Source of the DNA: an uncultured Alphaproteobacteria bacterium
GTDB taxonomy: Bacteria > Pseudomonadota > Alphaproteobacteria > Sneathiellales > Sneathiellaceae
Assembly (NCBI GenBank): GCA_913062525.1
Contig: CAJXWA010000015.1
Location: forward strand, 1-33,901
Reading direction: 5' to 3'
DNA: 33,901 nucleotides
The notes beneath the pieces were generated by a model that saw nothing but the letters and a program-made list of their open reading frames with translations, made no database searches and was not told where the DNA came from. A program made the translations under genes and the position numbers. Shown here piece after piece: positions 2,784 to 20,653 of this stretch (position 1 is the first letter of the stretch; each line of letters begins with the position of its first letter).

Positions 2784-2841
2784 ATTATCCTCCCATTAAT
2801 TCAGACCATTGGGACCGAAATCCCCCTAAGACTTGGTCCGA

Positions 2842-3168: not shown

Positions 3169-3195
3169 TTTACTTTTTCCTTCACCTAATAGAAA

Positions 3196-3651: not shown

Positions 3652-3690
3652 GTTATTTTCCTTCAACATAACTTTTCCAGCTTGTTTCGA

Positions 3691-4152: not shown

Positions 4153-4345
4153 AAAATCCTCCCCATAATCCCAACATTTGACAAGCAGCCCGGTTTTTAT
4201 TTGGAATATTTGGCGATGTTTTCAACAAAAGGATGAAAACGCCAAACACCCCGTTCGGGCTATGCTGCGTCAAATTGTCTCAGTTACGGTATCGTAAAAA
4301 ATGACTGGAGGCAATTCAATAATTGCATTTTTTGAATGTGTTTTT
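4153..4345. promoter_or_regulatory. soxW-soxX intergenic control region
   Basis: This 193-base gap precedes the structural sox genes. It contains three dyads: TTACG-GTAT-CGTAA (4284-4297), GCAATT-CAAT-AATTGC (4311-4326) and the candidate SoxR box ATTG-N8-GAATGT (4322-4339). In Paracoccus the soxW-soxX gap is a known SoxR binding region. Which dyad binds what is not decidable from sequence alone. Confidence 0.5.
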
Positions 4346-4939
4346 CTAGCCCGCCGCCAGATACTTATTGAGGCTCTTTATTTTATATGTCTCGCTGGCA
4401 ACATATTGAAATATTGAGAGAAATTTGTTTGGCTCCATATAGCCGGGCAATCGCGCGATTTCTCGGTCAAGTGGGGAAATGCTCTCAAGGTCTTTAAATT
4501 CTTTAGGGAAAAACTGAACAGTTGGCGTGAACCGAACGCCATATTTCTTCGCTAATTTCTTTTCGGAAAGCTCTTCTCCGTCAAAATCTATGACCTTGCG
4601 AGAGCCGATGACATTTAGCTGCAAAACGTCAAAGTTGTCTTGAATGAAACCACTAATTTTCTGATCGGCCAAATTGACTTCGTGGGTTTTTGCGCAGTAA
4701 GGGCAGTTTTTTAATTCCCACATAATGGCGAAATGTTTCTCAGAATCATTTGCTGTAGAATGGTCATCCGCAAGTTCTAGAAAGCTCTCAAGAAACCAGG
4801 GCTGATAATGCAATCCATCATCAGTTAGGACGGCCTCCGCCCCTGCAGCAAGTCCATTTTTGAGCAACGAGAGAGAGCTGGCCGCCGCGGTGGCACCGCC
4901 CATAAGCGCGTTTGTAAATGCCCGCCTTGTGATCTTCAT
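4346..4939 (-). CDS. soxW: SoxW, periplasmic thioredoxin-like protein
   Basis: SoxW is a periplasmic thioredoxin that receives electrons from the membrane protein SoxV and helps keep the Sox carrier cysteine reduced. The 197-residue protein has a Tat-like signal (MKITRRAFTNALMGG). It has a thioredoxin-fold active site CPYC (C79-C82) in LKNCPYCAKTHE and the cis-proline region VRFTPTVQFF. GGGAG precedes the ATG. It follows soxV by 41 bases, as in Paracoccus soxVW. The annotation rests on fold plus position. A generic DsbE/thioredoxin label would be the fallback. Confidence 0.88.
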   Translation of the reverse strand: MKITRRAFTNALMGGATAAASSLSLLKNGLAAGAEAVLTDDGLHYQPWFLESFLELADDHSTANDSEKHFAIMWELKNCPYCAKTHEVNLADQKISGFIQDNFDVLQLNVIGSRKVIDFDGEELSEKKLAKKYGVRFTPTVQFFPKEFKDLESISPLDREIARLPGYMEPNKFLSIFQYVASETYKIKSLNKYLAAG

Positions 4940-4980
4940 TTCAACTGCTCCCGTTTTTTCTGAATAGTTCTTTTCGTCAT

Positions 4981-5715
4981 TTAGCTAGCTTGCCCAAGGG
5001 TTGGAAAGAGTTCCTGCAACCCATAACCGATGGCCGACATATTCCCAGTGAGTAATAAAATACCTGTGAGAATGAGCATGATACCAACGGCAATTTCGAC
5101 TTTGTGTAGATGTTGTCTGAATTTTTTCATAAAGCGCATGAACGGATTTACAAAAATTGAGGCTAGAATGAAGGGTATTCCTATACCGATTGAATAGAGT
5201 CCCAAAAGTTTGATGCCCTGCCAGATGCTGTCTTCACTGCCTGCGATCATAAGAATCGTTGCCAATATGGGGCCGACACAGGGAGTCCATCCAAAGGCAA
5301 AGGCCAGGCCGACAAAGTAGCTTCCAATGGGACCGGTTGGTTTCTTGTTCGTCTGGAAACGGGCCTCGCGGTACAGAAAACCTATTTTTAAGAGCCCTGC
5401 GAAATGAAGCCCCAAAAGGATAATTATGATGCCGGCGATTTTTTCTAGAATATAGAAATTTTCGGTAATCAATCTACCAATAGAAGTGGCTGTGGCACCG
5501 AGAGCAATGAAGACTGTTGTGAAACCTGCGACGAACGCCACGGTTCGATAAAAAACCCGCTTTCGGACCTCACGGTCATCAGCCTCTTCTGTTAGCTCAC
5601 TTAACCCAACACCTGCAAGATAGCACAAATATGGGGGCACTAAGGGTAAGACACAGGGGGATAGAAAGGAGAACACACCCGCAATAAAAGCTCCGGAACT
5701 GGTAATTTCTAACAT
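4981..5715 (-). CDS. soxV: SoxV, CcdA-family thiol electron transporter
   Basis: A 244-residue polytopic membrane protein of the CcdA/DsbD-beta family that moves electrons from cytoplasmic thioredoxin across the membrane to SoxW. The motif FLSPCVLPLVPPY holds C21 in the first membrane segment, and GWTPCVGP holds C146 in a later one. This is the conserved cysteine pair of CcdA, each flanked by prolines. About six hydrophobic segments are visible. It is the first gene of the leftward sox unit and starts 121 bases from the divergent soxS. The ribosome site is weak. Confidence 0.92.
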   Translation of the reverse strand: MLEITSSGAFIAGVFSFLSPCVLPLVPPYLCYLAGVGLSELTEEADDREVRKRVFYRTVAFVAGFTTVFIALGATATSIGRLITENFYILEKIAGIIIILLGLHFAGLLKIGFLYREARFQTNKKPTGPIGSYFVGLAFAFGWTPCVGPILATILMIAGSEDSIWQGIKLLGLYSIGIGIPFILASIFVNPFMRFMKKFRQHLHKVEIAVGIMLILTGILLLTGNMSAIGYGLQELFPTLGQAS

Positions 5716-5836
5716 TTATTTTCTCGCGGCTTGCTATCACATTCATATTTTTCTATATATTAAGGCATAGAATGTGGAACGAGTAAATTGATAAAATTCG
5801 ATCTGATAGTAGTAACAATTGGAGGGAGAGGGCCAA
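5716..5836. promoter_or_regulatory. divergent soxV / soxS promoter region
   Basis: This AT-rich gap lies between soxV (minus) and soxS (plus). It contains an inverted pair ACATTC (5739-5744) and GAATGT (5770-5775), 25 bases apart, flanking an AT-rich core. The half-sites match the GAATGT element seen before soxX and soxB. The soxS-soxV gap is a known SoxR target in Paracoccus. A strong ribosome site for soxS, GGAGGGAGAGG, lies at 5821-5831. Confidence 0.5.
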
Positions 5837-6196
5837 ATGATACATAGACATGCCGCCAAACTTATAGTTGTTCTTTCTTTCAGTTGCTCGTTTTTTGCGA
5901 GCTCTGTTTACGCGGCTGAACTATTGATGTTTCGGGAACATGGTTGCAGTTGGTGCGAAAAATGGGATGAAGAAATTGGCGAAATTTACCCAAAAACCAC
6001 AGAAGGTAAGGCGGCGCCTCTCCGACAACTAAATATTCATGACCCGATACCAGAGTATGTGGCGAAAAATGGTTTAGTTCATTTCTCACCAACCTTTGTC
6101 CTAGTTGATGATGGGGCAGAAATCGGTCGAATAACAGGTTATCCGGGGGAGGATAATTTCTGGTGGTTTCTCGAGGAACTTGTCAAAAAAATGTAA
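5837..6196 (+). CDS. soxS: SoxS, periplasmic thioredoxin reactivating SoxYZ
   Basis: SoxS is a small periplasmic thiol-disulfide protein that reduces SoxY and so reactivates the sulfur carrier. The 119-residue precursor has a Sec signal (residues 1-26, ending SSVYA). It is followed at once by MFREHGCSWCEKW with active-site C37 and C40, and by a thioredoxin-like HFSPTFVLV segment. I chose the ATG at 5837 because GGAGGGAGAGG lies just upstream; an upstream TTG at 5819 is less likely. It is divergent from soxV and starts the regulatory transcript with the GlcG-like gene, soxR and soxT. Confidence 0.9.
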   Translation: MIHRHAAKLIVVLSFSCSFFASSVYAAELLMFREHGCSWCEKWDEEIGEIYPKTTEGKAAPLRQLNIHDPIPEYVAKNGLVHFSPTFVLVDDGAEIGRITGYPGEDNFWWFLEELVKKM

Positions 6197-6739
6197 ATGG
6201 GAGTGTATGGGGAAATGGGAATTAAAACAGGACTAAAGACGCTAGCAGGTTTTGCCATATGGGCGCTTGCTGTAAGTACACCACTATCAGTACCGGCTGC
6301 CGAAGAGGAGAGCCTTGTCACCTTTAAAGTGATGTCTCCAGATCTTGCAATTGAACTTGCGCAAGCAACACTTGAAGCGTGCCGAGAAAAAGACTTCCAA
6401 GTGGCGGTTGCCGTTGTTGACAGATTTGGTATTGTTCAAGTTATTCTCCGGGATCAGCTTGCTGGAGCCCATACACCTGAAACGGCACGACGAAAAGCAT
6501 GGACGGCAGTTAGTTTTCGCACAGACACTCTGTCGTTGGGAGAATCGACTAAAGCCGGAAATGAAGCCTCTGGTATTCGCTTCGTGACGGATGTTTTGAT
6601 GGCAGGCGGCGGAACACCTGTTATGGCCGGTGGCTCATTGGTTGGCGGTGTCGGTGTTTCTGGTGCGCCAAGCGGCGAGTCTGATGATGAATGCGCAAAT
6701 GAAGGAATTGAACAGGTAAGTGATCAGCTTGATTTTTAA
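6197..6739 (+). CDS. secreted GlcG/HbpS-like (DUF336) protein in the sox regulatory operon
   Basis: The 180-residue product has a Sec signal peptide (cleavage near SVPAAEE). It is followed by a single GlcG/HbpS domain recognisable from LAIELAQATLEACREK, VAVAVVDRFG, ARRKAWTA, a glycine-rich GGGTPVMAGGSLVGGVGVSGAPS and a final DECANEGIEQV. Family members bind heme or small ligands, or act as secreted partners of sensors; none fixes the function here. The ATG directly abuts the soxS stop (TAAATG), so it is co-translated. An ATG at 6215 is an alternative start. It separates soxS from soxR, which I do not recall from model sox clusters. Periplasmic location suggests heme or redox sensing, but that is inference. 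Confidence 0.8.
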   Translation: MGVYGEMGIKTGLKTLAGFAIWALAVSTPLSVPAAEEESLVTFKVMSPDLAIELAQATLEACREKDFQVAVAVVDRFGIVQVILRDQLAGAHTPETARRKAWTAVSFRTDTLSLGESTKAGNEASGIRFVTDVLMAGGGTPVMAGGSLVGGVGVSGAPSGESDDECANEGIEQVSDQLDF

Positions 6740-6760
6740 TTAAGCGACCTGACGATATGG

Positions 6761-7105
6761 ATGATTATGGATAGTATTGAACTTGATAAACTTGACGAAC
6801 TGATCGATTTCCCAGACGAAATGGTCAAAAATGCGTCATTGGCATGTACCACATTGAAAGCGATGGCTCATGAAAGCCGACTTCTAATCTTGTGCCTTTT
6901 GGCCAATGGAGAGAAATCGGTTATCGAGCTTGAAAAGCGCTTGTCCATGCGGCAACCCGCAGTCTCCCAGCAGTTGGCAAGATTGCGTGCAGATGATTTG
7001 GTCACAACGCGGCGAGACGGGAAGACCATTTACTACGCCATCGCTAATCAAGAAGTTAAAGCCATCATTAGGCTTTTATACTCTCTGTATTGTGCCCCAA
7101 AATGA
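6761..7105 (+). CDS. soxR: SoxR, ArsR-family (SqrR/BigR-like) persulfide-responsive repressor
   Basis: A 114-residue winged-helix repressor of the ArsR family, predicted to repress the sox promoters until sulfane sulfur appears. The recognition helix is RQPAVSQQLARLR and the wing is TTRRDGKTIYYA. C45 (in LLILCLL) and C111 (in LYCAPK) are 66 residues apart, the same spacing as the reactive cysteines of SqrR and BigR (C41/C107 and C42/C108), which form a polysulfide bridge. A third cysteine (C29) is extra. Start options are ATG 6761 or ATG 6767. Its stop overlaps the soxT start (ATGA), so the two are translationally coupled. Confidence 0.9.
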   Translation: MIMDSIELDKLDELIDFPDEMVKNASLACTTLKAMAHESRLLILCLLANGEKSVIELEKRLSMRQPAVSQQLARLRADDLVTTRRDGKTIYYAIANQEVKAIIRLLYSLYCAPK

Positions 7106-8190
7106 TGTTTGATTTACCGCTCCCAACTTTGATGGGTCTTCTTGGATTGGGCTGCGGAATTGTTTTGGGATTAACAGCAAGAACCGCCCGCTTTTGCACC
7201 TTTGGCGCAATCGAGGATGCTCGTTTAGGCAATGACTGGCGCCGGCTTAGATCATGGGGGATCGCTATTGTTGTCGCCATTATTGGCGCGCAATCCCTTC
7301 AGTATTTCGGTGTGTTGGATTTAAATGCATCCGTCCATTTAAGACCCGAACTGACGTGGCTGTCGTTAATCCTTGGCGGTCTCGTTTTCGGGTTTGGCAT
7401 GGCGCAAGTGGGAACCTGCCCATTTGGTGCGTTAGTTCGCTTTGGCACAGGAGATCTTCGGGCGTTTGTAACCTTGTTGGTTATTGGTATTACCGGCTAT
7501 ATGACATTACGCGGTATCACAGCCTACTTCCGGTTTTTCATCCTCGATCAAGTGAATATTGACATGGTTGATCGCGGGGCTCAGTCACTTCCCGCGCTTA
7601 TGGGGATAACAGATGCAAACGGAACGTACGGTGCAGCCATTGCTGTTGCGGCTTTATTGCTTATTTGGGTGATCAAGGATGCTGAGTTTTGGAAATCAAA
7701 ACGGTATTTTGTTTCTGGGTGCATTATTGGTCTAACAATTACCTTTGGCTGGTTTGCAACGGGGTATCTTGGCCAAGACGAGTTTGATCCGCAAACCGTG
7801 GTGTCCATTGGATTTGTGGGGTCGCTCTCCAACGGTTTAGTGTATTTGATGACCTATTCTGGCGCGACCATCAATTTCTCTATCGCTACGGTTGGCGGTG
7901 TGATTATCGGATCCCTTATTGGGTCGCTGATCAAAAAAGAATTCAAAATCGAAGCTTTTGATGATTCAAGAGAAATGAGCAGATATTTAATTGGCGCAGC
8001 CATGATGGGTTTTGGCGGAATAACTGCCCTTGGATGCACATTGGGGCAAGGTATGACAGGCCTGTCTACACTGTCCATTGGCTCCATAATTGCCTGTGGA
8101 TCTATCGCAGTTGGGGCCGTATTTGGATTGCATTATCTGCTGGAAGACAATTGGAAAGAAACACTGCTGGCGATTTTCAACCGGCAATAA
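7102..8190 (+). CDS. soxT: SoxT, YeeE/YedE-family sulfur transporter
   Basis: A 362-residue polytopic membrane protein of the YeeE/YedE (TsuA) family. Members import thiosulfate or related sulfur compounds through a cysteine relay. The family's cysteine signatures are all present: TARFCTFGA (C32), VGTCPFGALVRFGTGDLRA (C106) and GGITALGCTLGQGMTGL near the C-terminus. I start at ATG 7102, which overlaps the soxR stop; a TTG at 7090 is formally possible. In related bacteria soxT lies beside soxR and soxS, and one role suggested there is delivering a sulfur signal to the cytoplasmic repressor. Import versus signalling cannot be told from sequence. Confidence 0.9.
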   Translation: MMFDLPLPTLMGLLGLGCGIVLGLTARTARFCTFGAIEDARLGNDWRRLRSWGIAIVVAIIGAQSLQYFGVLDLNASVHLRPELTWLSLILGGLVFGFGMAQVGTCPFGALVRFGTGDLRAFVTLLVIGITGYMTLRGITAYFRFFILDQVNIDMVDRGAQSLPALMGITDANGTYGAAIAVAALLLIWVIKDAEFWKSKRYFVSGCIIGLTITFGWFATGYLGQDEFDPQTVVSIGFVGSLSNGLVYLMTYSGATINFSIATVGGVIIGSLIGSLIKKEFKIEAFDDSREMSRYLIGAAMMGFGGITALGCTLGQGMTGLSTLSIGSIIACGSIAVGAVFGLHYLLEDNWKETLLAIFNRQ

Positions 8191-8204
8191 CAACTCTGTG
8201 TGTT

Positions 8205-8253
8205 GGGGCCGTTTATTTTCGCGGCAAGTGCCGTCTCCTAACAGTGCCCCTTT
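8205..8253. terminator. possible terminator between soxT and the flavoprotein gene
   Basis: An outer GGGGC...GCCCC pair encloses an inner perfect hairpin CGGCA-AG-TGCCG (8222-8233). It is followed by a short TTT on the plus strand. It lies exactly in the convergent gap between soxT and the leftward flavoprotein gene. The stem is interrupted and the T run short, so this is tentative. Confidence 0.35.
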
Positions 8254-10675
8254 AAGTCTTCATACGGGCTTGTTCTGGATCGAATAGTGGCTCCATAAAG
8301 AGTTTGGCGCCGCGTTTCTCTCCCAGAATTTCAATCTCAACCTCTGTGCCTTCAGCCGCTAAAGAAGCTGGGACAAACCCAAAAGCCACAGATTTTTGGG
8401 TATAATGTGCATATCCGCCTGAGGTTACAAAACCGACAACTTCTCCGCTATGCCAAATAGGCTCGTCCCCCCAAACATCGGCATCTTTTGCATCCACAAT
8501 GAAAGTACAAAGCACCCTGTCTGGCGTTCGCGCACGATCTTTAAGGGCTGCCTCTTTTCCAATAAATGCAGCATCCTTCTTATAAGAGACAAAACGGCTC
8601 ATTCCTGTCTCAACTGGCTCATAATCAGGTCTGAATTCGCGCCCCCAAGATCCGAAAGATTTTTCAAGCCGCAAACTCATCATTGCCCGCATGCCAAAGG
8701 GTTTAAGGCCGAGCTCACGTCCGGCATGGGTCAATGTATGGTATAGGGCGATTTGATCTTCTGAGGGCACAAATATTTCAAACCCTAAATCACCCGTGTA
8801 TGAGACACGCTGGATCAAAGCGCGGCAGGGTCCCACATCCATTTCGCGGACATCCAGAAATTTGAAAGCCTCGTGCGATACATCATCAAAAAAAGCGACG
8901 CGTGATAAAAGCTCGCGCGCCCTTGGTCCCGCGATTTGAAACCCCAGTCGTTGAGTGGATATATTTTCAATTGTGACGGATCCGTCTGTTGGTAAATGCG
9001 ATTTGAACCACCGCATGTGAACGCTTTGCATTTGAAAAGAAGCTGTTGCCATAAACTCAGTCTCGGACAAGCAAGAAACCGTAAAATCACCGATAAGTTT
9101 TCCTTTGGGACTTAGCATGGGGTTAAGCGCCAACCGGCCGGGTTTTGGAATACGCCCTGCCATAATATGATCGAGCCAATCTCTGGCACCTTTACCGGTT
9201 ATCCGGTATTTCCCAAAATTATGGACTTCGTTGATCCCAACAGAGTTTCGAACGGCGCGGCATTCGGCGCCAATGGCATCGAATGCATTGCTCCGGCGGA
9301 AACTCGGTATCTCCTCGAGAGGATCTTCTTCATTTGCAAAATAATTCACAGCTTCCATGCCATACGCCGCGCCAAAGACAGCCCGTTGATCTTTCCAAAG
9401 GCTGTAGGCGGGTGTGGTTTGTTGAGGGCGGCAAACGGGAAGCTCTTCGTTAGGGTAGGAGACAGAGAAGCGGCGTTGATAGTTTTCGCGAACCTTGGCG
9501 CGGGTATATCCTGGCGTGATCCAGTTTCCAAAACGGGCAACATCCATGGCATGCACATCACGGGACGGCTCGCCCTCGATCATCCATTCAGCCAACGTGA
9601 GGCCAACGCCGCCACCTTGCGAGAATCCAGCCATAACTGCGCAAGCTGACCAGAAATTGCGCAAACCCGGTACTGGGCCCACAAGCGGGTTTCCGTCGGG
9701 CGCAAAAGTGAAGGGGCCATTAATAATTGTTTTGATACCGGAACGTTCTAGAATAGGAAACCGGTTGAAGGCGAAAGACAAAGAGCTGCCGATACGATCA
9801 AGGTCATTGTTTAGAAGCTCATGACCAAAATCCCATGACGTACCTTTTTCTGCCCAAGGCGTGCAGTTTTGCTCGTAAAAACCAATGCAAATACCGCGCC
9901 CTTCTTGGCGAAGATAACTCTCCCCTTCTGGGTCCATCACATGGGGGAGTTCTCTGCCAAGGTTGTAGACGTCTTCAATATCTTCGGTAATCAGATATTG
10001 GTGTTCCATTGGGTGAAGGGGCATATAGACGCCGACCATTTCCCCAATTTCGCGGGCCCATAGGCCACCCGCATTGACCACATGTTCCGCTAAAATCGTC
10101 CCATTTTTAGTGACAACTTCCCATGATCCGTCTTTTTGTGGGTTTAGCTCCAGCACTGGATTATGCAAGCTGATTTCTGCACCTGCCATCTTGGCGGCTT
10201 TGGCATAGGCATGGGTCGTTCCAGATGGATCAAGGTGACCATCAAGCGGATCATATAGGCCGCCAATAACACCGTCTACATTGGTAATGGGGGAGAGTTT
10301 TTTGATTTCATCGGGCCCAATGATTTCTGTATCAAGCCCCATATAACGGTGCTTGGCGCGCTCAGCCTTGAGAAAATCCATGCGTTCAGGCGTTGTGGCA
10401 AGGGTCACGCCACCAACATGATGCAGACTACAAGATTGCCCGGTTATTTCCTCCAGTTCCCGGTAAAGCCGAATGGTGTAGCCTTGCAGCGCGGCCATAT
10501 TGGTATCCGCGTTCAAGGTATGAAAACCGCCAGCGGCATGCCATGTGGATCCCGATGTGAGATCAGATCGCTCAACGAGCATGACATCACTCCAGCCTAA
10601 CTTTGTCAGGTGATATAAAACGGAGCAGCCGACAACACCTCCGCCAATAACAACGACGCGCGTCTGTGTTTTCAT
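8252..10675 (-). CDS. dimethylglycine/sarcosine dehydrogenase-like flavoprotein with GcvT (folate) domain
   Basis: The 807-residue protein has two parts. Residues 1 to about 400 are an FAD-dependent DAO-type oxidoreductase with the dinucleotide motif VVVIGGGVVGCS. SGSTWHAAGG follows, whose H46 matches the histidine that binds FAD covalently in dimethylglycine dehydrogenase. Residues from about 430 on are a GcvT/aminomethyltransferase domain that in this family passes the oxidised methyl group to tetrahydrofolate. It should oxidatively N-demethylate a secondary or tertiary amine in the cytoplasm. GGGAG precedes the ATG. It is the last gene of the operon with an MttB-type methyltransferase, which fits stepwise removal of methyl groups. 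The exact substrate is unknown. Confidence 0.88.
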   Translation of the reverse strand: MKTQTRVVVIGGGVVGCSVLYHLTKLGWSDVMLVERSDLTSGSTWHAAGGFHTLNADTNMAALQGYTIRLYRELEEITGQSCSLHHVGGVTLATTPERMDFLKAERAKHRYMGLDTEIIGPDEIKKLSPITNVDGVIGGLYDPLDGHLDPSGTTHAYAKAAKMAGAEISLHNPVLELNPQKDGSWEVVTKNGTILAEHVVNAGGLWAREIGEMVGVYMPLHPMEHQYLITEDIEDVYNLGRELPHVMDPEGESYLRQEGRGICIGFYEQNCTPWAEKGTSWDFGHELLNNDLDRIGSSLSFAFNRFPILERSGIKTIINGPFTFAPDGNPLVGPVPGLRNFWSACAVMAGFSQGGGVGLTLAEWMIEGEPSRDVHAMDVARFGNWITPGYTRAKVRENYQRRFSVSYPNEELPVCRPQQTTPAYSLWKDQRAVFGAAYGMEAVNYFANEEDPLEEIPSFRRSNAFDAIGAECRAVRNSVGINEVHNFGKYRITGKGARDWLDHIMAGRIPKPGRLALNPMLSPKGKLIGDFTVSCLSETEFMATASFQMQSVHMRWFKSHLPTDGSVTIENISTQRLGFQIAGPRARELLSRVAFFDDVSHEAFKFLDVREMDVGPCRALIQRVSYTGDLGFEIFVPSEDQIALYHTLTHAGRELGLKPFGMRAMMSLRLEKSFGSWGREFRPDYEPVETGMSRFVSYKKDAAFIGKEAALKDRARTPDRVLCTFIVDAKDADVWGDEPIWHSGEVVGFVTSGGYAHYTQKSVAFGFVPASLAAEGTEVEIEILGEKRGAKLFMEPLFDPEQARMKT

Positions 10676-10714
10676 TTATCTGATCTCCCGAATTGATCGT
10701 ATGGGGTCTGGGTT

Positions 10715-12250
10715 TTAATCATCGTTTGCAATGCCGCCTTCTGCAATGCGTTTAGCAACGAAGTCGGAGATCGCCTCTTTTCGGCTCTCATCCATTTCAG
10801 GTTCCTGATACGCATCGAGGAGTTTTTTATACAGCCCGTTGGCGCGCTCAGTGGCGGTGTTTGAGCCCGCTTCTTCCCAGCTTTCAAAATTTCTCCAATC
10901 AGAAATCATGGGATCATAAAAGGCAGTCTCATATCGCTCCAGCGTGTGGGGAGTGCCAAAATAATGCCCGCCCGGCCCCACATCTTGGATTGCAGCGAGA
11001 CCCAGGTCGGCTTCTGTAATTTTTGGAGGCTGGAGGAATTTGGCCATCATTTGTAACATTTCAGCGTCGATAATGAGTTTCTCAAAAGAGGCACATAAAC
11101 CGCCTTCAAGCCACCCAGCCCCGTGCATGACCATGTTGGCTTGGCCCATCACCGCCGACCAAATGGACATCTGACTTTCGTATGTTGCTTGTGCATCAAC
11201 ACAGTTTGATGCATTGGCGTTGCTTGACCGGTAGGGGATATTTATGCGCCTTGCCAGCTGGGCCCCAATTAGGGCTGCTTGAGCGTTTTCTGGTGTTCCA
11301 AATGCTGGCGATCCCGATTTCATATCCACATTGGACGTGAACCCACCGTAAGCCAGAGGACATCCGGGTGCAAAGAGCTGCAACAATGTCATTCCCGCGA
11401 GTGCCTCTGCATGTTGCTGAGCAAGGGCGCCGGCAAGGGTTATGGGTGCCATGGCACCGGCCAATGTGAAGGGTGTGATAATGCACAGCTGCTTATGCCG
11501 GGCCATCTCAAACGCCCCCTCAATCATCACTCCATCCAGCCGCAACGGGGACGAGGTGTTGATGATGGTAAACAATCTGATTTTTTGATCAAACTCTGCC
11601 CAAGAGGTACATCCATGGGCGAGGCGGGTTATTTCAAGGGCATCAGAGATCCGTTCCTTTCCAAGGGAGTAAGCGTGATAGACCTTGTCAGTGAGGATCG
11701 CCATATCACTGATACAATTTAAATGGCGAGTTCGAGGCGGAAGATCAACGGGTTCAACAGGGTAGCCAGCGATAAAATGAATGATGTTGAGGGACTGACA
11801 TAATTTCACGAGATTTTTGAAATCACCGTGATTGCCAGGGCGCCGCCCTCCTTCAAGGTCACTGACATTGGGGGCGGAGGCGACAGAACCAAAACTAATT
11901 CTACCGGGCGATAAATCAAGATTATGCGCTGGATTACGTGCATGAAGGGTGAGAGTGTTTGGGGCAGATTTAAGCGCGGTTTCGATAATATCTCGGCCGA
12001 TACGAACCCGCTCACCCTCAACAAGCGCCCCAGATTTTTTAAAGACCTGCCGGGCACCCTCATGCAGGATATCAACACCGATGGTTTCCAGAATGTCAAA
12101 CGCGGCACCACAGATGGCGTCTATGTTTTCTTCTGATACGATGTCCACAGGTTTATAGGGGTTGTTGATCTGCGCCCATGGTAATTGATTTAGCGAGCCG
12201 CCTGTTCGGCGAGTTCTATTGCCTCGGCTTCGTCTCGTCCTTTGTGACAT
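10715..12250 (-). CDS. MttB-family (non-pyrrolysine) trimethylamine methyltransferase-like protein
   Basis: A 511-residue member of the MttB superfamily. The archaeal trimethylamine enzyme reads an in-frame amber codon as pyrrolysine. This gene has no internal amber codon, so it belongs to the widespread non-Pyl branch. Members of that branch demethylate quaternary amines such as glycine betaine, proline betaine or carnitine. The basic start MSQRTRRSRGNRTRR and the TIM-barrel-like body match bacterial homologues. I chose ATG 12250 because AGGGAGA lies about six bases upstream; a TTG at 12280 would overlap the previous stop. No cobalamin-binding corrinoid protein gene is in the cluster, so the methyl acceptor must be encoded elsewhere or differ. 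Confidence 0.87.
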   Translation of the reverse strand: MSQRTRRSRGNRTRRTGGSLNQLPWAQINNPYKPVDIVSEENIDAICGAAFDILETIGVDILHEGARQVFKKSGALVEGERVRIGRDIIETALKSAPNTLTLHARNPAHNLDLSPGRISFGSVASAPNVSDLEGGRRPGNHGDFKNLVKLCQSLNIIHFIAGYPVEPVDLPPRTRHLNCISDMAILTDKVYHAYSLGKERISDALEITRLAHGCTSWAEFDQKIRLFTIINTSSPLRLDGVMIEGAFEMARHKQLCIITPFTLAGAMAPITLAGALAQQHAEALAGMTLLQLFAPGCPLAYGGFTSNVDMKSGSPAFGTPENAQAALIGAQLARRINIPYRSSNANASNCVDAQATYESQMSIWSAVMGQANMVMHGAGWLEGGLCASFEKLIIDAEMLQMMAKFLQPPKITEADLGLAAIQDVGPGGHYFGTPHTLERYETAFYDPMISDWRNFESWEEAGSNTATERANGLYKKLLDAYQEPEMDESRKEAISDFVAKRIAEGGIANDD

Positions 12251-12276
12251 TCTGCATCTCCCTGTTAGGGTTTCCC

Positions 12277-13071
12277 TCAAATCATGGGGCCAAATTTTTC
12301 CTGTACTCGGCGTAGCCGTGTTTCAATGACGTGGTAGTCTTTTGGGCGTGTTTTTGATAAACCAGTTAACAAAAGCGCGTCACGTGTGGGCTCGTCAAGC
12401 GCCATCATTGCATCAATAACCGCCATGTGGAGTTTGTCAGTTTCAGCACTTGAGCGGCGGCAAGTGATGTATGGCAACCCCGGAGTGGGGGCCGTGGTTG
12501 CGATAACCCGCAGCCGCGCGGCACTTTTCTCGTGTCGCATGGCCAGTTTCCATGTAATCGCATCAATAGCGGCAAAATCCGCATTGCCCTCTGCTACGGC
12601 TTGAATTGACTGACGGTGCCCGCCTGATTTCATGTGGGATATGAAGTGCTCTTCCGCATTTTCTATATCTGAAAGTGTGTAAAGAAGGGCCGCATACCCA
12701 GATTGTGAATTGCTGTCATTAAACGCAAATTTTAGACCTTTTAGATCTTCTAACGTATTAACATCTGAATTTTGGTGAACGACGATAACGCTGAAATATG
12801 ACCCTGCGCCGCAGTTGATGTCATACGCAGGAGTGCCAATAAGGCACACTTCACCTTTCAGAAAACGGACAAAAGGTAGCCCGCAGGTTTGTGACATTAA
12901 CAATTTTTGATCTTGCCAAATATCCAGCCCTTGTCGAGCCCGTTCCAATTTATTGGGAGTGTCGAAGCCTCTTTGGTTAAAGCTGTCTTTTAAAAGGGAA
13001 TGGAAGGTATTCGTATGATTTTCAATTTCTGGCCAATCATACATGGGCAGTGAAACGTGTAAGCTACTCAT
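12277..13071 (-). CDS. PhnD-like substrate-binding protein without signal peptide
   Basis: A 264-residue type 2 periplasmic-binding fold of the PhnD-like family. Typical features are ADFAAIDAITW, LRVIATTAPTPGLPYIT and the hinge segment LEDLKGLKFAFNDSNSQSGY. Family members bind phosphonates, phosphite or other small anions for ABC import. Here the protein starts MSSLHVSLPMYDWPEIENH, with no Sec, Tat or lipoprotein signal, and no permease or ATPase gene is nearby. It therefore looks cytoplasmic, perhaps a ligand sensor, substrate chaperone or enzyme-like derivative. It lies 12 bases after the desaturase-like gene and 26 bases before the MttB-like start, clearly in one operon. Confidence 0.8.
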   Translation of the reverse strand: MSSLHVSLPMYDWPEIENHTNTFHSLLKDSFNQRGFDTPNKLERARQGLDIWQDQKLLMSQTCGLPFVRFLKGEVCLIGTPAYDINCGAGSYFSVIVVHQNSDVNTLEDLKGLKFAFNDSNSQSGYAALLYTLSDIENAEEHFISHMKSGGHRQSIQAVAEGNADFAAIDAITWKLAMRHEKSAARLRVIATTAPTPGLPYITCRRSSAETDKLHMAVIDAMMALDEPTRDALLLTGLSKTRPKDYHVIETRLRRVQEKFGPMI

Positions 13072-13083
13072 TGATGCGTGCCC

Positions 13084-13977
13084 TTACTTCTGGTTACTGG
13101 TAAGAGTGGGATAAGCAACGGGTTCTTTTGGAGAAAAGGCAAATCGTCTGAAAATTTCCCAATAGCTTTTAAAATAATATCCTTCGTTAAGCGCCAGAAG
13201 ACGCTCCCTATTTTCTCTGTAAATGTTTGGCAGTCGGTACCACGCAACCGCTGGATAGGCATGATGCAAGGCATGTAGGTTGTTGTTTAGGAAAAGGTAA
13301 CTGAAAACCCCGGTATCTTCGATGATAACACTCCGCGCCCTAAGGGATGCATGGGCTTGGTGCTCCAGAAAAGTGCGGACCATGAGAAGAGAGTATCCGA
13401 AATAGCAACAAATCAAATAGATCCAAATCTGCATATTCCCCAGCGTATCAATTGCTAATAGGATCAGTGCCACAGAGACCAAATGAGATATCCAAATGGC
13501 GCCGCTTTTAAAGTTCAAATTTTTAATCTCATAACAGGCGAAGTTCATAAGATTGATGGCCGGCCCAATGAGCATCCGTCCTGTAAGTGTATTATTTATC
13601 TGATAAATTTTTTGGGCCAAGGAAGATCGGTTTTCCCAAACCGCAGGATCTTGATAGCAGCTTTCAGGATCTTCATAAGGAACCGCAAGGCGAGAGTTTT
13701 GATGGTGCTTTATGTGGGCGTCTTTAAATCTCAAATAGGGCAGGAATACTCCCATGGGCGCAAAAACAAGCGCATCGTTTAAAGTCTGTGATTTAAAGGG
13801 ATGTCCGTGGATGCATTCATGTTGCAACGAGGAATGTAGGGTAATTAAAGGAACAATAACTATAAGTTGGATGAAAACGGGCAAGGCCATGGGGTTTATA
13901 ATCATCAAACCGAAAGCTGAATAACAAAACACCAAAAGAGCAATTGTTCGCCATTCTGGGTACTCACTGAAACGCAT
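13084..13977 (-). CDS. membrane fatty-acid-desaturase-fold di-iron enzyme
   Basis: A 297-residue membrane protein with the three histidine boxes of the desaturase/hydroxylase family: HECIHGH (about residue 53), HIKHH (about 89) and HALHH (about 237). These bind a di-iron centre facing the cytoplasm. Four or so hydrophobic segments separate them. Classical members desaturate acyl chains, while others hydroxylate alkanes, carotenoids or sphingolipids. Its place as first gene of an operon for methylated-amine demethylation suggests a different substrate, or modification of membrane lipid or an amine-bearing lipid. That is inference. GAGAGGG precedes the ATG. Confidence 0.85.
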   Translation of the reverse strand: MRFSEYPEWRTIALLVFCYSAFGLMIINPMALPVFIQLIVIVPLITLHSSLQHECIHGHPFKSQTLNDALVFAPMGVFLPYLRFKDAHIKHHQNSRLAVPYEDPESCYQDPAVWENRSSLAQKIYQINNTLTGRMLIGPAINLMNFACYEIKNLNFKSGAIWISHLVSVALILLAIDTLGNMQIWIYLICCYFGYSLLMVRTFLEHQAHASLRARSVIIEDTGVFSYLFLNNNLHALHHAYPAVAWYRLPNIYRENRERLLALNEGYYFKSYWEIFRRFAFSPKEPVAYPTLTSNQK

Positions 13978-14050
13978 TTTTTTCCCTCTCTAAGCTATAT
14001 ATGGTTAATATGTGGGAAAATAAATTTCGTAGACAACCATATAATTCAAA

Positions 14051-14084
14051 CATTATAATGAACATTCACGACTATACTTGTATA
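14051..14084. promoter_or_regulatory. palindromic operator candidates between desaturase-like gene and XRE regulator
   Basis: The divergent gap (13978-14108) contains CATTATAATG (14051-14060), a perfect 10-base palindrome. It also contains TATAC-TT-GTATA (14073-14084), a perfect five-base dyad. Both are suitable targets for a dimeric XRE-type regulator, which is encoded next door. The GTG start of that gene has GGAG at 14098-14101. Confidence 0.45.
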
Positions 14085-14108
14085 TGTTTACATAGATGGA
14101 GAATTGGT

Positions 14109-14984
14109 GTGAATCCACAACATATGCCAACCAATAGCGCCGATAAACGAGACATTGCCCATATTTTTAGAGACCGCATGAACGTGTTAATTGCGCAGCG
14201 CGGCTTTAATTTAAGCCAGTTCTCCAAATCAATCGGTGTTGACCGGTCCGCACTCAGTCAATTCTTAGCGCCCGACTCTACCCGTCTACCAAGAGCAGAG
14301 ACACTTTATGCCATTTCCAAATCTTGCGGGGTATCGCTGGACTGGTTACTGGGATTAGTCGCGACAGAGGGCGAGTCAGATGACAGTGCGCCCTTGGTGG
14401 AAACCTTGCGAATTTCGGGCGAAGCGGCAACTCAAAAAATCGTGGAATGGCACCGGGAAGCGCTGGGCTACAAAATTCGATATATTCCCAGCACCATTCC
14501 AGATTTATTGCGCATAGAAGAAGTGAGTGATTACGAGTTTAAAAACTACAATCTTGATATCCGTGAAGCGCAGGATCAACAAGCCCGAAGGCAACTGTCA
14601 GCCGTCCCTTATCCTGAAACTGATATTGAAGTCTGTATGCCCCTTCAAACCCTAGAGCATTTTGCTAAAGGAGAGGGGACATGGAAAGAGCTTTCCATTG
14701 ATATACGGCGCAAGCAGCTTGAACATATGTTGAAGCTGGTTAATGAATTTTACCCCACATTTAGGTTGTTTTTCTTTGACCAACACGCGGTCTATTCCGC
14801 CCCTTACACGCTTTTTGGGCCTCTGCGGGCAGTGGTCTACCTTGGAAACATGTATCTTGTTGTCCATTCGGTGGAGCATATCAAAGCCTTAACCCAGCAT
14901 TTTGACCGCCTTATTCGAATAGCAAAAGTGGGTCCCGACCGGGCAGAAGCGCAAATTCGCTCCTTTATAAAACAACTGAGTTAG
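14109..14984 (+). CDS. XRE-family regulator with C-terminal ligand-type domain
   Basis: A 291-residue regulator. The helix-turn-helix is at about residues 20-75 (FNLSQFSKSIGVDRSALSQFL, then ETLYAISKSCGVSLDWLLG). The remaining 200 residues form an unnamed domain with alternating helices and strands, loosely reminiscent of the C-terminal sensory domain of some actinobacterial XRE proteins. I chose the GTG at 14109 because GGAG lies seven bases upstream. The longer frame from 14001 would place coding sequence over the promoter palindromes and has no ribosome site. Divergent orientation makes it the likely regulator of the amine-demethylation operon. Confidence 0.8.
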   Translation: MNPQHMPTNSADKRDIAHIFRDRMNVLIAQRGFNLSQFSKSIGVDRSALSQFLAPDSTRLPRAETLYAISKSCGVSLDWLLGLVATEGESDDSAPLVETLRISGEAATQKIVEWHREALGYKIRYIPSTIPDLLRIEEVSDYEFKNYNLDIREAQDQQARRQLSAVPYPETDIEVCMPLQTLEHFAKGEGTWKELSIDIRRKQLEHMLKLVNEFYPTFRLFFFDQHAVYSAPYTLFGPLRAVVYLGNMYLVVHSVEHIKALTQHFDRLIRIAKVGPDRAEAQIRSFIKQLS

Positions 14985-14993
14985 GTGGATTAC

Positions 14994-16421
14994 CTAGTCG
15001 GTCACATTGATCGTGCTTTTCATTCCCAGTGCGGCATGTTCTAGCAAATGACAATGTGACAGCCATTCCCCAAGGTCTGCCGGTACAACGCCAATATCAA
15101 GCGACCCATCATAATCAAGTAGAGCTGTATCTCTGAAATAGGGCTCGTTTACCGGAACGCCATCTCTTGCTAGGACTTTGAAAAAGACGCCGTGAATATG
15201 GACCGGATGGTATAGGCCCGTTCCATTGTTAAATCGCATGCGATAAAATTTGTTATTTTTGAGCTGAGTAATATCGTGATCCCCAAACACCTTATTGTTG
15301 ATGGTAAATGAGACAAAGGCTTTGTTTGTCCATAGGGAGCTAATATCAAACGCAGTATCAAAATCGAATATGAAATCTGGTTTCTCGTTCAGCGCATTTG
15401 TCCAATCGGGAACCGCGGTGTGGACAGGTAATGGGAAAGTCTTTGGTTTTGCAACTTTTCCTACAATACTAATTTTTGCGATCGTTTGAGGCCCCTCCAA
15501 TGCGCTTCCGCTCGCTTCTCGGTGAAAAAATGTATTGGCTATATGAACAGATTGACCTTCCAGGTTTTCTGGAATGGTGAGATCAATATCTACCCGGTTG
15601 CCAGGTACGATATCGAAAATTTCCACTTGTTGTGGCTCACCCACCAAATTGCCATCAACAGCAATAATCGCTGACGGCAAGTTGGCAAAGGACAGACGAT
15701 AATTTCGGGCATTGGATGGGTTAACAATCCGCAGCCGGATGCGTTCGCCGGCTTTAAAAGTGAACTTTGGCGTGTTCTCTCCATTGATCGTAATGATGTT
15801 TCCAAGGCGTCCGCCGGTGTCTAGAAATTTGAAATCGAAATCTTCATCGAGACTGCCGTCATCCTCTGTTAGGACATCGTCCAACATCCAGACCAGATCT
15901 TGATCGTATTTACCTTCGAATTCATCCTCAACAATCAACGTCCCGTAAAGACCGCGTTCCAATTGCTCGTGTCCGCGTACGTGGGGATGAAACCAGTAGG
16001 TTCCTGCATCTTGGGGAACAAAATCATAGGTGAAAGACTTTCCTGGCTTAACGGGGATTTGCGTTAAAAACGGAACGCCGTCCATGGCGTTGGGCACACG
16101 AACGCCGTGCCAGTGAATGGTAGTGTTTTGCGGAAGTTGGTTGGTGAGAGTAACCTGTACCCGGTCCCCTTTTTGAACTCTCAAAATGGGACCGGGAAGC
16201 TGTCCGTTATAGGCCCATCGGGTTACGGTTTCGCCGTCCTGCATGATTTCTATTGGGCTGGCAGTTAGATTAAATGCCCTAACCTGGCCTGTGTCCACTG
16301 AGGAGCCCAGAAACGTTTGGAATCCTTCAACGTACGTTTGGGTGCCGGTTTTTTCTGCACTATTTGCAAGTGATGAGATACCAAAAAGCAGACTTGCTAT
16401 CAGCAGTACAAATAAAGGCAT
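14994..16421 (-). CDS. periplasmic multicopper oxidase (laccase/CopA type)
   Basis: A 475-residue three-cupredoxin multicopper oxidase with a Sec signal (cleaved near SLANSA). All four copper motifs are present: HWHG (103-106), HPHVRGH (145-151), HPVHIHG and HCHLLEHAALGM near the C-terminus. The last gives the T1 cysteine, histidine and axial methionine. It oxidises metals (Cu, Mn) or phenolics with oxygen. It has no methionine-rich copper-tolerance loop that I can see. AAGGAAC precedes the ATG. It converges on the XRE gene with a 9-base gap, so it is probably independent of both neighbouring operons. Confidence 0.88.
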   Translation of the reverse strand: MPLFVLLIASLLFGISSLANSAEKTGTQTYVEGFQTFLGSSVDTGQVRAFNLTASPIEIMQDGETVTRWAYNGQLPGPILRVQKGDRVQVTLTNQLPQNTTIHWHGVRVPNAMDGVPFLTQIPVKPGKSFTYDFVPQDAGTYWFHPHVRGHEQLERGLYGTLIVEDEFEGKYDQDLVWMLDDVLTEDDGSLDEDFDFKFLDTGGRLGNIITINGENTPKFTFKAGERIRLRIVNPSNARNYRLSFANLPSAIIAVDGNLVGEPQQVEIFDIVPGNRVDIDLTIPENLEGQSVHIANTFFHREASGSALEGPQTIAKISIVGKVAKPKTFPLPVHTAVPDWTNALNEKPDFIFDFDTAFDISSLWTNKAFVSFTINNKVFGDHDITQLKNNKFYRMRFNNGTGLYHPVHIHGVFFKVLARDGVPVNEPYFRDTALLDYDGSLDIGVVPADLGEWLSHCHLLEHAALGMKSTINVTD

Positions 16422-16610: not shown

Positions 16611-18176
16611 TTGAGTAAAACACTGAAGAAAATAATCTCCTCACATAATCAATCCTATTCATTGTTACGCAATCGGCTTGATGAAAACCCTTTTGACGCT
16701 GGGTTATTGATCGAAATGGGTGCGCTGTTGTTTGCTAACGGCAAAGCATCAGATGCGATGTTGTATTTAATGCGAGCAACTATCCGAAAGCCGGATAACC
16801 CAAGTCTTCTAATGAATATAGGTTTTTGTCTAAATGCTCTCAGCATTCACGGAGAGGCCGTGCGCTATTTTCAAGCGGCATTGGATTTGGGGAGTACGCA
16901 TACAAGGCTTTTAGAAAAAATGTGCGAAAGCCTTGGCCGGATTGGTAAGTATAGCGAGATTGACTCATTGTTGGATCAGTATAAAAAAACCGCACTTAAC
17001 AGCCGCCGCTTGTTGTTGTTATGCGTTGCCAATTATCACTCAATGAAAAACTATGAAGACGCTGCTGAGCTTGCTGATCGCGCGCGCGGGATGAATTTAA
17101 AAAACACCTATACGTCCGCAGCAGCTGATACGATAAAGGCCGCCCTAAATCACCAAACCGGGCGTAAGACAACGCAAAAATTACGGGTAGCATTTCATCT
17201 AAACGAGCAGTTCCATTACGCAATAATGAAGCCAATTTTTGATGCATTGAAACATCATTACGAGGTTGTAATGACATCAGATCCGATTTGGGTAAAGAAG
17301 TTCGATCCGGATTTAGTTTTTGTTGCGAATAGGCAAGCGGTGAATTTACGGAAACTCTTCCCAACTGCCAAATTCGTCTATACGCGCCACGGTCTTATCA
17401 GCAAGAATTTTGTCTATGATGCAGCAAGGAGTTGCGATTTTGTCTGCGTGAGTAGTGAAGATCAACAAAAACAATTTGTCGAAGAAGGAAAGTTTAGGGA
17501 AGAGAAGGTTTGGGTGACGGGGTATTCGCAGATGGATCCCTTATTTAGAGACGAACCCCCTACTGTGGAGTTGCCACTTCGGCCAGATCATAAATGCGTT
17601 TTATACGCGCCCACATTTACGCGTGGCCTATCTTCAATCCCAATGATGCTTCCCCATATGACTAAGGCATTCTTTAATGAGATGAAGGATGTAGATTTTG
17701 TCATTAAAACGCATCCGCTAACTCAGAAAACAAGTGGTGATTGGGTGATTAAACTTCAGGAAATTGCACAGACATTTGAACATGTTCATCTTGTTGATGA
17801 TATAGCAGCAGATATCGTTCCGCTTTTAAGTGGTGCTGATGTTTTGATCTCGGATGTCTCGAGTGTCATGTTTCAGTTTTTGGCTCTAGATAGGCCCATA
17901 ATCGCGTTGAATAATCCCGATCGCCTCCAAGTGAAAGAATATGATCCCAGCGGTATTGAATGGCGATGGCGTGATATGGCCACTGAGATAAACAATATGA
18001 TTGATTTGAGCGCAACTATTAAGGCCTGCTTATCTGATCCATCGAAAAACAAGAAGATTAGAGAAACTTACCGAAACTCTCTTTTTGGAACGATGACGGA
18101 AGGGAAAACCGGAGAGCGCGTTCTGGGCTATGTACAAAAATTATCGCTTTTGGAAGAACGGAATACGCGTGACTAA
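16611..18176 (+). CDS. TPR protein fused to CDP-glycerol/CDP-polyol phosphotransferase domain
   Basis: The 521-residue protein has N-terminal TPR repeats (about residues 25-185). A TagB/TagF-like CDP-glycerol glycerophosphotransferase domain (about 190-510) follows. Diagnostic segments are VYTRHGLISK with a catalytic-type His, VTGYSQMD, VLYAPTFTRG, VIKTHPL, and ADVLISDVSSVMFQFLALDRPII. Such enzymes transfer polyol phosphate from a CDP-polyol onto a glycan, lipid carrier or protein. No signal or membrane segment is evident, so it should act on the cytoplasmic face. The start is a TTG without a clear ribosome site; the true start is uncertain by some residues. Its last bases overlap the cytidylyltransferase gene, so the three genes form one unit. 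Confidence 0.85.
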   Translation: MSKTLKKIISSHNQSYSLLRNRLDENPFDAGLLIEMGALLFANGKASDAMLYLMRATIRKPDNPSLLMNIGFCLNALSIHGEAVRYFQAALDLGSTHTRLLEKMCESLGRIGKYSEIDSLLDQYKKTALNSRRLLLLCVANYHSMKNYEDAAELADRARGMNLKNTYTSAAADTIKAALNHQTGRKTTQKLRVAFHLNEQFHYAIMKPIFDALKHHYEVVMTSDPIWVKKFDPDLVFVANRQAVNLRKLFPTAKFVYTRHGLISKNFVYDAARSCDFVCVSSEDQQKQFVEEGKFREEKVWVTGYSQMDPLFRDEPPTVELPLRPDHKCVLYAPTFTRGLSSIPMMLPHMTKAFFNEMKDVDFVIKTHPLTQKTSGDWVIKLQEIAQTFEHVHLVDDIAADIVPLLSGADVLISDVSSVMFQFLALDRPIIALNNPDRLQVKEYDPSGIEWRWRDMATEINNMIDLSATIKACLSDPSKNKKIRETYRNSLFGTMTEGKTGERVLGYVQKLSLLEERNTRD

Positions 18177-20071: not shown

Positions 20072-20653
20072 ATGACCATTGAAACCGACCTTCAGAAACG
20101 CAATGACAACAAATGCGAACTTTGCGCATCAATTGACGGTCTAAGTGTCTTTGAGGTCTCCCATGCGCCAGAGAGTTCTGTAAATGGATCTGCCTATCTG
20201 TGCCCTGTTTGTCAGGATCAGATTATCAATCCGGCTAATATCGACACGGCCCATTGGCAATGCTTGAGCGACAGCATGTGGAGCGAGACTTCAGCGGTTA
20301 AAGTCCTTGCATGGAGATTACTCAGGGTTATGCGGCGGGAGAGCTGGGCTCAGGACCTTCTCGACATGATGTATTTGGATGAAGGTGATCTCGTGTGGGC
20401 TGAAGCGGGCGAAACAGCGATGACCGATGTTGAGGATACACAGCATGTGGACAGTAACGGCGCGGTTTTGGCTGCCGGTGATACGGTTGTTCTGATTAAA
20501 GATTTGACTGTGAAGGGCGCAGGCTTTACGGCAAAGCGCGGGACAGCTGTTCGCGGTATATCGCTTGTGGCTGATAATGCCGATCATATTGAAGGTCGCG
20601 TGAGCGGTCAGCAAATTGTCATTTTGACGAAATTCGTTAAAAAATCGACCTAA
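20072..20653 (+). CDS. PhnA-domain zinc-ribbon protein
   Basis: A 193-residue cytoplasmic protein. The N-terminal part has two CxxC pairs (KCELC and LCPVC) that form a zinc ribbon. The C-terminal 70 residues match the PhnA/YjdM domain: DSNGAVLAAGDTVVLIKDLTVKGAG, KRGTAVRGI, then IEGRVSGQQIVILTKFVKK. Despite the name, PhnA/YjdM is not part of phosphonate uptake proper and its role is unsettled. It is transcribed alone about 100 bases after the polyol operon. Its stop directly abuts the stop of the convergent gene on the other strand. Confidence 0.85.
   Translation: MTIETDLQKRNDNKCELCASIDGLSVFEVSHAPESSVNGSAYLCPVCQDQIINPANIDTAHWQCLSDSMWSETSAVKVLAWRLLRVMRRESWAQDLLDMMYLDEGDLVWAEAGETAMTDVEDTQHVDSNGAVLAAGDTVVLIKDLTVKGAGFTAKRGTAVRGISLVADNADHIEGRVSGQQIVILTKFVKKST

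Follow-up and report, generated by a model that had tools for sequence, protein, structure and literature searches.

In a 33,901-nucleotide window from an uncultured alphaproteobacterium of the family Sneathiellaceae (contig CAJXWA010000015.1, C15 of the 3.5-Mb, 247-contig, 85% complete assembly GCA_913062525.1, here G000), we found a gene cluster in which a non-Pyl methyltransferase of the MttB superfamily (MttB) and a flavoprotein/GcvT fusion resembling dimethylglycine dehydrogenase (DMGDH) stand with a membrane enzyme of the desaturase fold (DES), a leaderless binding protein (SBP) and a divergent XRE-family regulator (XRE). The set is conserved beyond chance, since it recurs in other genera and the linkage between DES and MttB is far above expectation. 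We consider it somewhat probable that the cluster is a conserved module by which a carboxylated quaternary amine is demethylated aerobically and with the help of B12, the amine being an amino-acid betaine and probably not glycine betaine; gene content, conservation, co-occurrence, linkage and the presence of a corrinoid core were computed, and the substrate, the activities (including the roles of DES and SBP) and the regulation are our proposals from sequence. A demethylation route for a methylated amine had been suggested in a first-pass annotation of this DNA and is supported here, and the amino-acid betaine is our addition.

The four minus-strand genes are open reading frames over the intervals given in Table 1, as is the divergent XRE frame, and the recomputed intergenic gaps are 12 (DES-SBP), 26 (SBP-MttB) and 39 (MttB-DMGDH) bases. 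The earlier reading of the four genes as one operon thus holds for an operon-like unit, and Pfam domains agree with the family names it had given to all of the genes. The ATG taken as the MttB start is internal to a longer frame that opens with TTG (10715-12280).

To place the cluster among its relatives, contigs were scanned with a 13-row DES alignment, which yielded 325 confirmed relatives. The best 80 of the 325 make up the 80 named loci, several of which end at contig edges; gene calls in G+C-rich loci are longest open reading frames and therefore rough, and names of neighbours that lack a family match rest on sequence appearance. Of the 80 loci, 71 have XRE and 21 have SBP at most 1.5 kb from DES, and 42 have MttB at most 10 kb from it. 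DES, SBP, MttB and DMGDH occur together in five of them (L037, L038, L040, L041 and L043), the first four of which carry XRE too, while L043 has none and lies at a contig edge. Co-occurrence of the four families with XRE in other genomes, named in the first-pass annotation as a check on its proposal, was accordingly found in L037, L038, L040 and L041. The closest DES among the named loci is that of L037, from Alphaproteobacteria bacterium 46_93_T64, and all five genes recur in Kiloniella. Partial sets were also observed: L039 ends after MttB, L058 has MttB and a sarcosine-oxidase-like protein (DAO435) with no DMGDH match, and L050 has a DMGDH match upstream at 44% identity and no MttB.

Within the genus, a DES orthologue was detected in 13 of 24 genomes, a count that includes a 65-residue piece at a contig end (G007) and omits matches below 31% identity and two of 58 and 54 residues. 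Ten of these genomes (G001, G002, G003, G007, G012, G015, G017, G019, G021 and G022) have a split arrangement, with a separate DAO435-DMGDH-MttB operon and DES-SBP elsewhere; the split-operon DMGDH is 71 to 74% and the MttB 52 to 54% identical to those of the window, and XRE is divergent from DES-SBP except at the contig end of G007. Of the other three genomes, G009 carries a fragment of a split-operon-type MttB at a contig end; the arrangement in G000 and G018 is the fused one. An MttB outside the MtgB (glycine-betaine) type was present in 13/13 genomes with DES versus 1/11 without it (Fisher p 6e-6, kinship ignored). Among the latter 11, four of which are under 90% complete, G020 alone has DAO435-DMGDH-MttB, five have proteins that are MtgB-type by score (two in pieces), one has a trace of 33 bits and four have none.

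The association also held across the class. In 289 alphaproteobacterial genomes (completeness floor 90%, with G000 added at 85%), searched at E values of at most 1e-40 for DES and, with the window protein as query, 1e-100 for MttB, a threshold that admits MtgB-type proteins as well, DES was found in 42, MttB in 60 and DAO435 in 25. MttB was present in 38 of the 42 genomes with DES versus 22 of the 247 without it, and DES and DAO435 coincided in 18. In 15 of the 42 genomes, from 9 of 22 families, DES and MttB are at most 10 kb apart, compared with 0.71 expected from genome size and the listed MttB copies, this expectation being a lower bound, as at most five candidates per genome were scored among the MttB matches listed; 13 linked genomes are left without G000 and G237. 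DES and MttB are convergent neighbours 27 to 125 bp apart in G157, G163, G069 and G187, and 0.7 to 7.7 kb apart in the others. Because the arrangements differ, the linkage arose or was kept repeatedly. In G024, MtgB, MtgC, MtgD, DES, XRE and SBP all fall within 15 kb.

The PF06253 match of the window MttB is full-length, covering residues 6 to 506 at 634 bits against a cut-off of 25. Its frame is free of stops over 511 residues and hence has no in-frame amber codon, and it scores 288 bits against TIGR02369, the equivalog of the Pyl-type enzyme, below the cut-off of 525, which bears out the earlier designation as non-Pyl. In a 77-row tree the protein falls inside a 67-row group (100/100), separate from an MtgB encoded elsewhere in the genome, from 4yyc, whose source and substrate we take as assumed in marking the MtgB group, and from the glycine-betaine methyltransferase 9yce. 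The tree has open forks and a long-branch warning (L172, L173 and L192), and its rows were mostly fetched through DES loci, so that the share of the 67-row group lying within 10 kb of DES (52 rows) is no test of linkage. By this grouping the window MttB would not be an MtgB glycine-betaine methyltransferase. Two other MttB observations were made in the genus. A third type, which comes with a DMGDH-like fusion of its own and forms a long branch next to the MtgB group in the tree, occurs in L172 (G020, 9660-13668) and L173 (G022, 9661-13612), and the MttB gene at G008:C11:364118-365612 gives two overlapping matches and is probably broken or affected by a sequencing error.

The DMGDH fusion has the dimethylglycine dehydrogenase architecture DAO-FAO_M-GCV_T-GCV_T_C. 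Its best solved relative is the dimethylglycine dehydrogenase 4p9s (641 bits), with which, as with 5l46, it shares domain order over 800 residues, although a second fusion in the same genome is slightly closer to 4p9s (673 bits). Relatives that are 71 to 86% identical stand in the same or the split operon. The fusion is a probable N-demethylase of a tertiary amine that would transfer the methyl to folate.

That second fusion lies on contig C111 (L126, G000:C111), where positions 2836-11666 encode MtgB (784 bits to 4yyc), the DMGDH-like protein, MtgC, DUF1638, MTHFR, MtgD and, at the contig end, the start of a RamA-like gene, whose Fer2 N-terminus is 60% identical to a RamA-like protein and whose remainder lies beyond the contig end. 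MtgC is a B12-binding protein and MtgD a Pterin_bind methyltransferase, so the MtgC, MtgD and RamA-like members of an MtgBCD-type pathway are all encoded here, likely as the glycine-betaine demethylation set of this genome. The first-pass annotation had noted that neither a corrinoid protein nor a methyl-corrinoid:folate transferase is encoded; this stands for the window region and fails for the genome, and the corrinoid partners are absent from the window because the MtgC/MtgD/RamA set sits elsewhere. A relative of DAO435, which is part of the operon in Kiloniella, is likewise encoded apart, on contig C31, and is 69% identical to the Kiloniella protein.

The same arrangement, with the MtgC/MtgD/RamA core encoded apart, is described for Ruegeria pomeroyi in the main text of PMC12478193, where MtgBCD serves glycine-betaine demethylation and as a split methionine synthase. 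The two systems share a PF06253 methyltransferase, an MtgC/MtgD/RamA-type core and an aerobic alphaproteobacterial host; they differ in the MttB of the window, which is not part of the MtgB group and is accompanied by DES, SBP and XRE, and the term "desaturase" does not occur in that main text. According to the same text, several PF06253 proteins of one genome may feed one MtgC, an idea that the window MttB fits, and only the glycine-betaine member of the MttB-type proteins has been tied to the MtgC/MtgD core (PMC12478193). Eubacterium, as described there, has several PF06253 enzymes (MtpB, MtcB and MtyB) with one common corrinoid protein, similar by description to what we propose, in an anaerobe.

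From the families, a pathway can be proposed. MttB would move one N-methyl group from the quaternary amine to the corrinoid on the shared MtgC of C111, MtgD would pass it to tetrahydrofolate, and RamA would keep the corrinoid reduced. The DMGDH fusion would then oxidise an N-methyl of the resulting tertiary amine to give methylene-tetrahydrofolate, and DAO435 may take a further methyl or oxidise the product. DES would most likely be an O2-dependent hydroxylase in the same pathway, perhaps attacking an N-methyl group so that formaldehyde is released. The ligand of the leaderless SBP may be the substrate or a pathway intermediate, which the protein would carry to DES or sense together with XRE; XRE itself would control DES-SBP and, with them, possibly MttB and DMGDH.

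DES has hydrophobic segments and the histidine motifs HX3H, HX2HH and HX2HH, which we take to be those of the FA_desaturase superfamily, and its nine histidines (53, 57, 88, 91, 92, 206, 235, 238 and 239) are invariant in 47/47 aligned rows; it is predicted to be a membrane non-heme di-iron enzyme. A sequence search of the PDB with DES gave no match. The superfamily hydroxylases CrtR, CrtW and GntB are of like family and size, but DES reaches only 22, 19 and 19 bits against their NCBIfam cut-offs of 475, 350 and 380. Of the 11 DES-MttB regions L180-L190, eight (L180, L181, L184 and L186 to L190; not L182, L183 or L185) have a GFA-family gene at most 1.2 kb from DES; the eight come from three of six families (f26, f30 and f32), and three of the GFA genes were confirmed by Pfam. 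The GFA family name implies formaldehyde, although it is doubtful that its members really act on it.

The SBP family assignment of the first-pass annotation, PhnD-like without a signal, agrees with the PF12974 match and with the N-terminus, which has no hydrophobic segment; the protein is probably cytoplasmic, as judged from its sequence. The best solved relatives of its profile are AioX (93 bits), ArrX (64 bits) and PhnD (49 bits). Cys63 and Cys87 are invariant in 22/22 rows, and the conserved CGxP cysteine of AioX and ArrX, which we take to bind As(III), is aligned and invariant; SBP differs from these periplasmic proteins in having no signal peptide and in its linkage to DES and XRE. Its score against TIGR03431, the PhnD equivalog, is 70 bits, well below the cut-off of 261, and a Pfam scan of 17 window proteins matched no phosphonate-cleaving enzyme, only one PhnA/YjdM domain, which is a name only. 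The phosphonate link that had been thought possible was thus rejected. Arsenobetaine came into consideration as a substrate through the AioX kinship alone. Among the regions L180-L199, both SBP and XRE were found in seven. In six of these (L180, L185, L186, L189, L191 and L197; L198 is the exception) SBP comes after XRE and is read in the same direction, and in L180, L186 and L189 a GFA gene separates the two; the neighbour genes of L188-L191 were covered for the key genes. SBP is instead placed after DES both in the clade of the window and in the 21 named loci that have it.

Tentatively, we offer a more specific role for these two proteins, which we rate as unlikely: DES would be an N-methyl oxygenase of a new kind, a membrane di-iron enzyme for a small polar amine (quaternary or tertiary) that works beside the B12-dependent MttB, so that one methyl would go to the corrinoid and another to formaldehyde with O2, and the leaderless AioX-like SBP would be the intracellular sensor or carrier for the XRE system. 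The GFA genes beside DES in the eight regions and the position of SBP after XRE in the six fit this proposal, which is weakened in that the GFA link comes from three families and DES of the 80 named loci has no GFA match within 6 kb.

The regulator is present and divergent as first annotated; its frame opens at 14001, and its start is probably the GTG at 14109. This start gives 291 residues, and we prefer it because the longest frames of the relatives mostly have 287 to 301 residues (17 seen; one of 343) and because a promoter-like site falls inside the extra N-terminus. Such sites number 11 in the region against a shuffle mean of 9.0, and being about as frequent in shuffles, this one gives weak support. 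A candidate operator dyad overlaps the probable start and reads TGTTGTGGATTCACACCAAT on the minus strand, compared with the relatives' consensus TGTTGTGAATTCACATCATT; its conservation may be partly coding, because it overlaps N-terminal XRE codons. For the 20-base operator matrix, 15 of the 16 intergenic sites were used; L050, whose dyad is in another register, was excluded.

Several observations weigh against the demethylation-module reading, in addition to the missing GFA genes of the named loci. The DES of G187 adjoins an MtgB-type gene, four of the 42 genomes with DES lack an MttB match at E 1e-100, and the genome counts are phylogenetically non-independent. On plasmids, for which PLSDB gene tables are incomplete and stretches were checked by tblastn, four DES regions (38 to 39% identical) were inspected, with MttB within 8 kb in one (Phaeobacter, which also has XRE) and MtgC in another (Terrarubrum, with RACo and an annotated PhnD-like SBP); the S. 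fredii region has SBP and neither MttB nor MtgC, that of R. beringeri has none of the three, and 3/3 plasmid MttB regions (Mesorhizobium, Parasedimentitalea and S. meliloti) are without DES. DES of Rhodobacteraceae is mostly without SBP and stands by carnitine genes, so DES may not share one function. Finally, the operator matrix gave no good site before the unlinked DAO-DMGDH-MttB operons, and a common XRE regulon was not supported.

The neighbours of DES mostly represent osmolyte or amino-acid settings, none of which fixes the substrate. They include carnitine 3-dehydrogenase (NF005716, 796 bits in L066) and BKACE in Rhodobacteraceae; ectoine hydrolase in three Rhizobiaceae loci (L053, 742 bits; L054 and L061, 97 to 98% identical); histidine ammonia-lyase and an OYE-type flavoprotein in G161; MLE/OCD/Ldh-family genes in Terrarubrum; and peptide-type ABC transporters in Kiloniella, G069 and S. 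fredii.

First among the named candidates, and still unlikely, is proline betaine (stachydrine or hydroxyproline betaine), from which MttB would give N-methylproline and the DMGDH fusion proline, with DES acting on the ring or the N-methyl. MLE, ornithine-cyclodeaminase and Ldh-type genes serve proline-betaine routes. In Terrarubrum, DES and the annotated PhnD-like SBP stand with MtgC, RACo, ornithine-cyclodeaminase, MR_MLE and Ldh-family genes; on S. meliloti pSymA an MttB 48% identical to that of the window is accompanied by a DMGDH-like gene (44%), a glycine-betaine ABC protein, MLE and Ldh; and in Kiloniella L041 an Ldh_2 gene follows DMGDH by 1.7 kb. Eubacterium MtpB, moreover, demethylates proline betaine according to the main text of PMC12478193. 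None of these neighbour genes was found in the window, however, and MLE and Ldh matches occur in three loci each among all loci examined. At 1e-6 the window SBP gives no match to that of Terrarubrum, and since proline betaine carries just two methyls, there would be no work for DAO435.

It is rather unlikely that DES takes no part in demethylation and is instead a genuine desaturase of fatty acids or membrane lipids that is co-regulated with osmolyte catabolism. Its FA_desaturase family and its occurrence with differing osmolyte sets (carnitine, ectoine hydrolase or MttB), sometimes with none, would agree with such a role, whereas its linkage to MttB and SBP in many families would not; no lipid gene was recognised beside DES, though no search aimed at lipid genes was made. 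The methylated amine may nevertheless be lipid-linked, as the first-pass annotation had suggested.

Glycine betaine, degraded by a second route beside that of C111, is a quite doubtful substrate. The match of the DMGDH fusion to dimethylglycine dehydrogenase points to it, as do the MtgB-type gene next to DES/XRE in G187 and the MtgBCD-type genes within 15 kb of DES, XRE and SBP in G024, but the window MttB falls outside the MtgB group and C111 already supplies MtgB with a DMGDH-like protein.

We regard as improbable that DES makes carnitine from gamma-butyrobetaine and that MttB demethylates either compound. Within 10 kb of DES, carnitine 3-dehydrogenase is matched in 36 of the 80 named loci and BKACE in 30, and an annotated Phaeobacter plasmid has the same gene order; all 36 loci, however, lack SBP, and their synteny is long and includes unrelated genes. 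No full-length carnitine 3-dehydrogenase was found in the 85% complete window genome, for which carnitine as a general substrate was rejected, and the enzyme is present in only 3 of the 13 genus genomes with DES.

That the set is a version of the marine homarine operon reported in 2026, a study cited in PMC13390433, is very improbable. That operon reportedly has five genes and a regulator and is thus of similar size, but the N-methyl is said to be retained there until N-methylglutamate, which would leave MttB no role. Its gene list was not found in the open-access papers searched, including passages of PMC13390433 and PMC12817926.

The features of the window are collected in Table 1. The multicopper oxidase gene beside XRE has a counterpart (71% identical) beside XRE in L022. 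The sulphur-transport-like protein on the other side is separated from DMGDH by 61 bases end to end and scores below the NCBIfam TsuA cut-offs, and the name of the PhnA-domain protein is no evidence for phosphonate use.

Table 1. Positions of the cluster genes, candidate control sites and neighbouring genes in the window
Feature	Positions	Strand	Evidence or remark
DMGDH-like flavoprotein/GcvT fusion, 807 aa	8252..10675	-	Pfam DAO 224 bits, FAO_M, GCV_T 197 bits, GCV_T_C
Non-Pyl MttB-superfamily corrinoid methyltransferase, 511 aa	10715..12250	-	PF06253 634 bits
SBP, binding-protein fold, AioX/ArrX/PtxB/PhnD superfamily, 264 aa	12277..13071	-	PF12974 (Phosphonate-bd) 105 bits
DES, membrane FA_desaturase/hydroxylase-superfamily enzyme, 297 aa	13084..13977	-	PF00487 111 bits
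XRE-family regulator, divergent from DES	14109..14984 (frame opens 14001)	+	HTH_3 30 bits
Promoter-like site for XRE, TAGACA-18-TATAAT	14030..14059	+	11/12 matches; weak
Candidate operator dyad, overlapping probable XRE start	14103..14122		seen in relatives' XRE-DES intergenic regions
Sulphur-transport (TsuA-like) membrane protein	7090..8190	+	convergent with DMGDH
CueO-like multicopper oxidase	14994..16421	-	convergent with XRE
TPR and CDP-glycerol glycerophosphotransferase-like protein	16611..18176	+	
PhnA-domain (YjdM) protein	20072..20653	+	

Further arrangements around DES were noted in relatives. In Saccharospirillum, a gammaproteobacterium, XRE-DES-SBP (L042, 11796-13834) is followed by a 33% match to a 2OG-Fe(II)-oxygenase and then an M24 peptidase domain; the matched oxygenase adjoins an MttB in Mesorhizobium (L203). 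Downstream of XRE in L183 (G187, 4805-7062) lie a Meth_synt_2 (core-MetE-like) gene and a gene for a 2Fe-2S ferredoxin, a possible electron donor of DES. Of three DES-family genes in G095 (L195 and L196), two are near imidazolonepropionase (TIGR01224, 480 bits) and the third is flanked on both sides by Lyase_aromatic genes. The lyase at L196:7480-8991 has no NCBIfam match at 1e-30 and might act as an amine lyase on a histidine betaine.

Taken together, a known methyltransfer system stands in a real, conserved partnership with an orphan oxygenase and a binding protein, and a search limited to a collection of open-access papers returned none naming both a fatty acid desaturase and a trimethylamine methyltransferase. 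Aerobic Alphaproteobacteria carry several orphan MttB-type proteins, one broad group of which now appears linked to the frequent partners DES, SBP and XRE. Such methyltransferases thereby become part of a testable pathway, in which an oxygenase is suggested to work alongside B12 chemistry. If so, such pathways would help to set the recycling of nitrogen osmolytes to ammonium and one-carbon units in the sea.

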